Positions 6,444 through 43,651 of a DNA stretch of 64,000 bases are shown piece by piece. Position 1 is the first letter of the stretch. Every line of letters starts with the position of its first letter. This stretch comes from Candidatus Gastranaerophilales bacterium (GTDB taxonomy: Bacteria; Cyanobacteriota; Vampirovibrionia; Gastranaerophilales; JAILCC01): contig JAQVHS010000002.1 of the NCBI GenBank assembly GCA_028696075.1, forward strand, positions 161,701 to 225,700, written 5' to 3'. The notes under the pieces are model-generated. The model searched no databases and was not told the DNA's origin. It was given only the letters and a program-made list of their open reading frames with translations. The position numbers and the translations under genes were made by a program.

Positions 6444-6620
6444 TTAAAAATAATTCAAACATTTTTCTAATTTCTTTTGCATTTTTCTTGCTGTATAACT
6501 ACCGCTTTCAAGTATAAGACCTTTGTCTTCTGCATAAGCCAGTGCATACATTAATATTTCATTCAGCATGGCTATATTTAAAAGTTCTGCCTCAATTTTA
6601 TTAAGTTGTTTTTTATTCAT
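6444..6620 (-). CDS. Small protein of unrecognised family, module A (58 aa)
   Basis: A 58-residue ORF with a good ribosome-binding site (AGGGG, about nine bases before the ATG). The sequence is mostly helical and amphipathic, with an acidic middle and a basic C-terminus (TARKMQKKLEKCLNYF). No known family is recognised. It is clearly homologous to the 46-aa ORF at 43511-43651: FLNEVLTYALKY there matches MLNEILMYALAY here, LILEGRSY matches LILESGSY, and both end in a Cys-Leu-x-Tyr-Phe motif. Both copies are divergent from a small XRE-type regulator gene across a palindromic spacer. Conservation of sequence and arrangement argues that it is translated. A target of, or partner for, the regulator is plausible, but no function can be assigned. 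Confidence 0.72.
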   Translation of the reverse strand: MNKKQLNKIEAELLNIAMLNEILMYALAYAEDKGLILESGSYTARKMQKKLEKCLNYF

Positions 6621-6635
6621 AAAATTAACCCCTAT

Positions 6636-6683
6636 TTTTACTGGATATTTGCCAGTAAATAAATGTTACTATATCCAGTAAAA
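6636..6683. promoter_or_regulatory. Operator region between module A genes
   Basis: A perfect 13-bp inverted repeat (6636-6648 TTTTACTGGATAT and 6671-6683 ATATCCAGTAAAA) fills the spacer between the divergent genes. Nested within it is ACTGG-N7-CCAGT at 6640-6656; TTACT-N6-AGTAA occurs around 6667-6682. These resemble operator half-sites for a dimeric HTH repressor, most simply the XRE protein encoded at 6691. The plus-strand ATG at 6691 has no visible Shine-Dalgarno sequence, so the regulator may be translated from a leaderless or very short-leader mRNA. Confidence 0.6.
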
Positions 6684-6690
6684 TAATCAA

Positions 6691-6915
6691 ATGGATTTTA
6701 ATGATTTTTATAAAAAACTGGGTTTGAAGATAAAATTTCTAAGAGAAGAAGTCGGCTTAACTCAAGAAAATTTAGCGGAGAAAGCAGGAATAAGTATTGA
6801 TTACCTGGGTAAAATTGAGGTTAATATAAATAGACCGGGTCTTATTTCGTTATTAAAAATAGCAAATGCCCTGGGTATTGAGCCGAAAGATTTGTTGGAT
6901 TTTGATTTAGATTAA
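6691..6915 (+). CDS. XRE-family (Cro/C1-type) HTH regulator, module A
   Basis: A 74-aa single-domain DNA-binding protein. The HTH_3 fold covers almost the whole protein: GLTQENLAEKAGISIDYLGKIE gives the positioning and recognition helices, followed by ISLLKIANALGIEPKDLL, typical of the fourth and fifth helices. Proteins this short are usually dimeric repressors or the antitoxin-like half of a two-gene module. It faces the 58-aa gene divergently across palindromic DNA, which suggests autoregulation. No extra ligand or toxin domain is present. Confidence 0.9.
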   Translation: MDFNDFYKKLGLKIKFLREEVGLTQENLAEKAGISIDYLGKIEVNINRPGLISLLKIANALGIEPKDLLDFDLD

Positions 6916-43207: not shown

Positions 43208-43423
43208 TTATTTTGTTTCAAACGTCAGTAAAAATTCAGCGGGAGATTGTCCAAATCCCTTTGCTATTTTAAAAAGGGCATCAAGCTTAATCCCTTGCTT
43301 AAGATTTTCTATTCTCGATAAAACAGCAGGTTCAATGCCGTTCTCTAACGCAAAACCATTTAGAGATTTACCTGCTTTCAGTCTTTTATTTTTAATGTAT
43401 AAGCCCAATTTATCGTATTGCAT
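43208..43423 (-). CDS. XRE-family HTH regulator, module B
   Basis: 71 aa, HTH_3 type. SLNGFALENGIEPAVLSRIENLKQGIKLDALFKIAKGFG covers the helix-turn-helix core. It is similar in size to the module A regulator but clearly diverged in sequence. It is divergent from the 46-aa gene at 43511 across a spacer containing ATTGAT-N4-ATCAAT, mirroring module A. Possible repressor of its own region. Confidence 0.88.
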   Translation of the reverse strand: MQYDKLGLYIKNKRLKAGKSLNGFALENGIEPAVLSRIENLKQGIKLDALFKIAKGFGQSPAEFLLTFETK

Positions 43424-43473: not shown

Positions 43474-43510
43474 AGGGTAGACCGGTTATGAATAATGATT
43501 TGGAAAAAAT

Positions 43511-43651
43511 ATGACTAATATTTTTTTCTTAAATGAAGTATTAACTTACGCATTAAAATACGTTGAAGAAAATAATCTTATATTAGAAGGCAGAAGCTAT
43601 ATTACGGAAAAAATACAACTCAAACTTAAAGAATGTTTGGAATACTTTTAA
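43511..43651 (+). CDS. Small protein of unrecognised family, module B (46 aa)
   Basis: 46 aa. Homologous over its length to the C-terminal 41 residues of the 58-aa protein at 6444-6620 (shared pattern LNE-[IV]-L-x-YAL-x-Y, LILE, SY, CL-x-YF). An overlapping upstream reading frame, ATG 43488, encodes MNNDLEKI and stops at TGA 43512-43514, sharing bases with this ATG. A -1 shift on the preceding run of six A would fuse it to give a 54-aa protein equivalent to module A. So the gene may use a frameshift, coupled re-initiation, or be damaged. Its stop overlaps the stop of valS by two bases. Confidence 0.6.
   Translation: MTNIFFLNEVLTYALKYVEENNLILEGRSYITEKIQLKLKECLEYF

Follow-up and report, generated by a model that had tools for sequence, protein, structure and literature searches.

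The window analysed here, a stretch of 64,000 nucleotides from a genome of Candidatus Gastranaerophilales, contains two pairs of small divergent genes, modules A and B, both flanked by housekeeping genes (pheT, a ferredoxin gene and valS). In module A a gene encoding a 58-aa protein (6444-6620, minus strand) and one encoding a 74-aa regulator (6691-6915, plus strand) diverge across a 70-bp spacer. The regulator belongs to the XRE / HTH_3 class, matching Pfam HTH_3 with an E-value of 3e-14 and a score of 53.2 bits (cut-off 23), and amounts to little beyond that domain; for the 58-aa protein, Pfam gave no match even with the E-value threshold relaxed to 10. Both ORFs are thus as described in the initial annotation, which had noted a protein without known family facing an HTH_3 gene, and the two spacer features that it reported are also present. 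The first is a perfect 13-bp inverted repeat at 6636-6683, a putative operator with arms TTTTACTGGATAT (6636-6648) and ATATCCAGTAAAA (6671-6683), which none of 3000 dinucleotide-preserving shuffles of the spacer equalled. The second, nested within it, is a palindrome with the core ACTGG-N7-CCAGT at 6640-6656 that extends to TTTACTGG-N7-CCAGTAAA at 6637-6659 and is a putative first operator site. This palindrome lies directly upstream of the AGGGG-ATG start of the small gene, where AGGGG is the likely ribosome-binding site (6629-6633, minus strand, reading TAGGGGTTAATTTTATG on that strand), and the last half-site of the 13-bp repeat lies directly upstream of the XRE start, such that a protein bound at these half-sites could block both genes. 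A search of Rfam for RNA elements gave no match within the spacer or close to it, and a scan of the region for consensus promoters gave matches no more numerous than in shuffled sequences.

Module B is likewise divergent, with a gene for a 46-aa small protein (43511-43651, plus strand) facing one for a 71-aa XRE regulator (43208-43423, minus strand; Pfam HTH_3 E-value 1.2e-7, above the cut-off). Its small protein is a homologue of that of module A (53 % identity over query residues 12-58, E-value 4.7e-11), and in this respect the earlier comparison of the two modules holds, although no inverted repeat in the spacer is significant (341 of 1000 shuffles were equally good) and the small ORF seems to be shortened at its 5' end. 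An out-of-frame MNNDLEKI* at 43488-43514 of the window, before the small ORF, resembles the N-terminus of the family, and module B may be decaying or there may be an assembly error at these positions.

The small-protein family is absent from Pfam, NCBIfam and PADLOC, nothing convincing was found in PHROGs, and the PDB yielded no convincing sequence relative. AlphaFold2 predicts the 58-aa protein to be a two-helix hairpin (pLDDT 96.7) with helices at residues 3-32 and 40-55. This fold does not point to a function, the hairpin being like ribosomal protein L29 in shape only, with no match at an E-value of 0.001 or below. The window's genome encodes three further copies of the 58-aa protein and a C-terminal remnant beside an XRE gene. 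The remnant (locus L005, 1501-1554, corresponding to C2:19801-19854 of the genome) is a C-terminal piece of a small gene, adjoined by an intact 87-aa XRE gene that lies next to a tyrS-like gene. When all HTH_3 genes of this genome were surveyed (28 matches), further divergent helical ORFs of 53-68 aa were found, and from four of these comes a second profile, A6, the window-type profile being A5. The two profiles are linked over 59 columns in a profile-profile comparison (hhalign, probability 94, E-value 1.3e-7), and at the profile level the genome holds nine copies (four A5 and five A6) and one remnant. The copy at L110 looks shortened at its 5' end, as does module B, and two small ORFs with the same arrangement (L098 and L099) lie beyond the reach of the profiles.

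Across the order, A5 matches, with E-values down to 1e-24, occur in 80 of 383 sampled genomes and 21 of 52 genera, and A6 matches in 88 of 146 sampled genomes and 24 of 40 genera, with up to eight matches per genome for either profile; the named relatives are Candidatus Gastranaerophilales / Melainabacteria genomes. Outside the order, neither the phylum and class samples nor a scan of contigs for close relatives gave an intact match. The phylum sample, searched with an earlier profile, contains a single match from outside the order, interrupted by two stops, and the class sample, searched with the A6 profile, contains none. Bacteria outside the phylum were covered by a profile scan of genome contigs that reaches close relatives only, in which a four-member alignment gave no matches and a closer subset gave ten loci. 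Viral contigs (by pattern search) and plasmids yielded no convincing relatives, and the one match among phage records is at chance level. Module A is thus one copy of an unnamed, order-wide family with several copies per genome.

As judged with partner-protein profiles, 58 of the 75 distinct A5 small genes are divergent from an HTH gene that is no more than 450 bp away; for the remaining 17, no HTH gene was found nearby in any orientation. Twenty loci (L191-L210) were taken from the A5 match list by sequence alone, before their neighbours were inspected, and these include 17 with a divergent HTH gene and one with a MazE-like ORF. By comparison, among the 272 large ORFs of the loci examined, which are already enriched, only 18 are divergent from an HTH gene. 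The check proposed in the initial annotation, that homologues should occur in many genomes beside an HTH gene on the opposite strand, was therefore borne out, both over the full set and for the loci picked by sequence, and its proposal of an undescribed, conserved divergent two-gene module stands. Over ten pairs of small genes the pooled pN/pS is 0.31, with 0.35 for the partners, single short comparisons being noisy; it follows from the pooled value that the small ORFs are constrained as proteins. A chance neighbourhood, in which a spurious short ORF happens to lie beside one of many XRE genes, might have been suspected, given how common such genes are in the window's genome and how easily short ORFs are spurious, but the order-wide association and the codon-level constraint already refute it; the strength of the matches across the order, the confidently predicted fold and the rarity of divergent HTH genes beside large ORFs tell the same way.

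The partners are of several types. HTH_3, HTH_26 (E-value 6e-20; loci L054 and L061), RHH_5 and RHH_3 are recognized above their cut-offs and ParG-like and MazE-like proteins below them, and a type without a Pfam family (the unnamed XRE-like type of L056, L058 and L059) has an AlphaFold2 model (pLDDT 83) similar to HTH proteins of the Cro/CI-like and POU kinds, though the E-values are weak. At L016 and L063 the small gene has no HTH neighbour and faces a ribbon-helix-helix gene, and at L134 a small gene without an HTH neighbour faces a similar 48-aa ORF. Within the A6 clade an HTH neighbour is present in 8 of 44 cases, and most of the others belong to a subclade found amid mobile or restriction-modification genes. 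We note that members of this subclade, within L142-L186 (for example L160, L162, L163, L165, L175 and L177), carry the motif YNTATVIDYFCRTQQEIEELYNL and as a rule lack an HTH partner; by eye, the genes beside them resemble type I restriction-modification, methylase and other mobile genes, and in many cases a 71-aa and a 66-aa ORF that belong to no Pfam or NCBIfam family come next.

Such surroundings, together with short CI/Cro-like regulators and palindromic spacers, might suggest that the pairs are chromosomal remnants of the immunity regions of phages or integrative elements, that is, of a CI-like repressor and a small early gene. We consider this most improbable, however, since no relatives were found in viral contigs (by pattern search) or plasmids and the phage match is no better than chance, both modules of the window have housekeeping genes on either side, and the genes are constrained and as a class are not decaying.

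The association of particular small proteins with particular regulators is not a stable one. A tree of the 75 small proteins requires the type of partner to have changed at least 19 times, with only 13 of its 72 inner branches strongly supported, and direct comparisons of loci provide the stronger cases of exchange. The small genes of the paralogous loci L058 and L059, which are in one genome, are 80-100 % alike in every 30-bp window, whereas the spacer and HTH gene are not. At the orthologous loci L126 and L127 the flanks and the small gene are similar, but the HTH gene and spacer are far more diverged. Loci L195, L194 and L198 represent one locus in three genomes, with similar flanks and with small proteins that are 77-88 % identical; an XRE gene is present in L195 and absent from L194 and L198, and dN/dS for the L195/L198 pair of small genes is about 0.2. 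Three direct ACTTAAT repeats lie upstream of the HTH-less small gene in both L194 and L198, and the same heptamer forms the palindrome arms beside the XRE gene in L121 and L192, so that an XRE protein encoded elsewhere might act on the small genes of L194 and L198.

Whole modules have also been lost, as is evident from scars at the rplI locus, where the module is present in G022, G030 and G035, and in three genomes of the genus of G022 (G004, G018 and G020) nothing but the final codons of the small gene remains. These last codons are seen as deletion scars upstream of rplI in L223, L228 and L230, and the module sits in L221 and L131. A clean empty site that would reveal insertion at pheT was also sought, but the nearest relatives differ in gene order around pheT and insertion is not demonstrable there; the idea that the 3' ends of core genes serve as a special site of insertion was rejected, the convergent gaps of the small genes being at the genome baseline.

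Palindromes are more frequent in the spacers than expected by chance. The best inverted repeat reaches p<=0.01 in 14 and p<=0.05 in 23 of 56 testable spacers, as against about 0.6 and 2.8 expected, and in a non-family control, a small set, 2 of 15 divergent spacers reach p<=0.05. The palindromes vary from pair to pair, as expected if each regulator were to have its own operator. More than half of the spacers, including that of module B, have no significant palindrome, and the operator model is thus not general as it stands.

Comparison of the loci reveals a conserved small protein, a divergently encoded regulator, palindromic spacers in a fair share of the pairs, and exchange or loss of the regulator with retention of the small gene. 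We favour a model, with a probability of roughly one half, in which the small protein is an effector under the control of a local, interchangeable autorepressor, rather than one member of a dedicated couple. A small DNA-binding protein, of the XRE type in module A, would bind the palindromes of the shared spacer and, repression rather than activation being assumed, would repress both its own gene and the small gene. The small protein, predicted to be a compact helical hairpin, would probably be a protein-binding effector; a target other than the neighbouring regulator is suggested because its sequence persists as the regulator and operator around it are replaced or disappear. The regulator half would then be an interchangeable local switch, and the small protein the conserved cargo. 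The A6-type relatives, which mostly lack an HTH neighbour, count against this model. A more speculative extension is that the module is a cassette whose conserved small effector acquires, in place, regulators with unrelated folds (XRE, HTH_26, the unnamed XRE-like type, RHH and MazE-like); each genome would then possess similar effectors under differing operators, a lineage-specific network without described counterpart, although we regard this as a tentative possibility.

The initial annotation had instead suggested a two-gene system such as a repressor with its antirepressor or a toxin-antitoxin-like switch, and a dedicated couple of this kind is not supported: the regulators encoded beside closely related small proteins are of the HTH_3, HTH_26, unnamed XRE-like and ribbon-helix-helix types, and at orthologous loci the regulator has been replaced or lost while the small gene is kept and constrained. 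A dedicated antitoxin, or a repressor targeted by an antirepressor and by nothing else in the pair's role, would be expected to evolve together with the small protein rather than be freely exchanged or dropped, and the exchange data thus speak against both; overall, the earlier interpretation is partly supported.

Were the module toxin-antitoxin-like, the hairpin would be the toxin and the HTH protein would silence it by repression, by direct neutralization or by both. Like type II systems, these are small two-gene units with partners of antitoxin kinds (XRE, RHH or MazE-like folds), their distribution is patchy, with many copies and losses of whole modules, and two broken small genes occur beside an intact HTH gene (L005; L021/L046), as expected if the toxin dies first. 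The usual one-strand operon is lacking, however, the genes being divergent in 58 of 75 cases and the rest having no HTH gene on the same strand, and no known toxin fold or family was found, the latter in Pfam, NCBIfam and PADLOC. Constrained small genes that outlast the loss of the HTH gene (L194/L198), alongside the many others without any HTH gene, also speak against this explanation. A further argument comes from the XRE-DUF397 pairs of Streptomyces and other actinobacteria, look-alikes that were predicted to be toxin-antitoxin systems (PMC2701414), although when fourteen pairs were tested they proved to be pleiotropic regulators and none behaved as a toxin-antitoxin system (PMC10364602). 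We thus consider a toxin-antitoxin function unlikely. The XRE-DUF397 pairs are in our view the closest multi-copy analogue of the modules described here, with many paralogous pairs of an XRE protein and a small protein of about 60 aa in each genome (PMC2701414, PMC10364602, PMC6262351). The DUF397 gene, however, is downstream of the XRE gene on the same strand rather than divergent from it, the XRE protein is about 300 aa long rather than a bare HTH domain, and neither the window protein nor 32 relatives has a DUF397 match.

We also doubt that the small protein is a dedicated antirepressor, one that lifts repression by binding the adjacent HTH protein or some other repressor. Its size and its predicted helical shape would suit a small protein-binding antirepressor, and there is a familiar precedent in Bacillus, where SinI, a helical protein of about 57 aa encoded beside the XRE repressor SinR, relieves repression by SinR. 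The SinI domain was not found, however, in a Pfam search of the window protein and 32 relatives, and our modules differ from SinI/SinR in their divergent layout, in a regulator with little beyond the HTH domain and in having partners of unrelated folds. Closely related small proteins are encoded beside regulators of differing folds, which would not be expected of a dedicated partner, and small genes remain constrained without an HTH gene; the swapping of partners makes a dedicated complex of the small protein with XRE less likely. The divergent layout of regulator and small protein is also like that of modules in Vibrio and Aeromonas prophages, in which a transcription factor activates a divergent smORF and the small protein inactivates the phage cI repressor (Silpe et al. 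2023, PMC10432266). These provide what appears to be the closest published logic, a DNA-binding factor (XRE in some cases) divergent from a small-protein gene, and the regulatory logic is expected to be similar. Those modules, however, are carried by phages, whereas the modules described here are chromosomal and no phage relative was found, and their small proteins are without homologues, whereas those described here form one order-wide family.

A literature search found no paper covering both Melainabacteria and XRE proteins. The order consists mostly of uncultured relatives of cyanobacteria, and the family occurs in many of its genomes yet is absent from every library searched. The usual pairing of the small protein with a divergent regulator that is exchanged around it points to a widespread unnamed regulatory module. 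Changes of regulator at fixed loci, with the small protein persisting, constitute a natural record of the exchange of regulators and operators, one that makes the choice between toxin, antirepressor and effector directly testable and that bears on the wider question of the role of XRE-plus-small-protein pairs. Finally, we note that at two loci (L064, 2246-2386, and L070, 2269-2394, both on the minus strand) homologous helical ORFs of 41-46 aa (MEKL...VDDLFNA) occupy the place of the HTH gene and are possibly a further type of partner.
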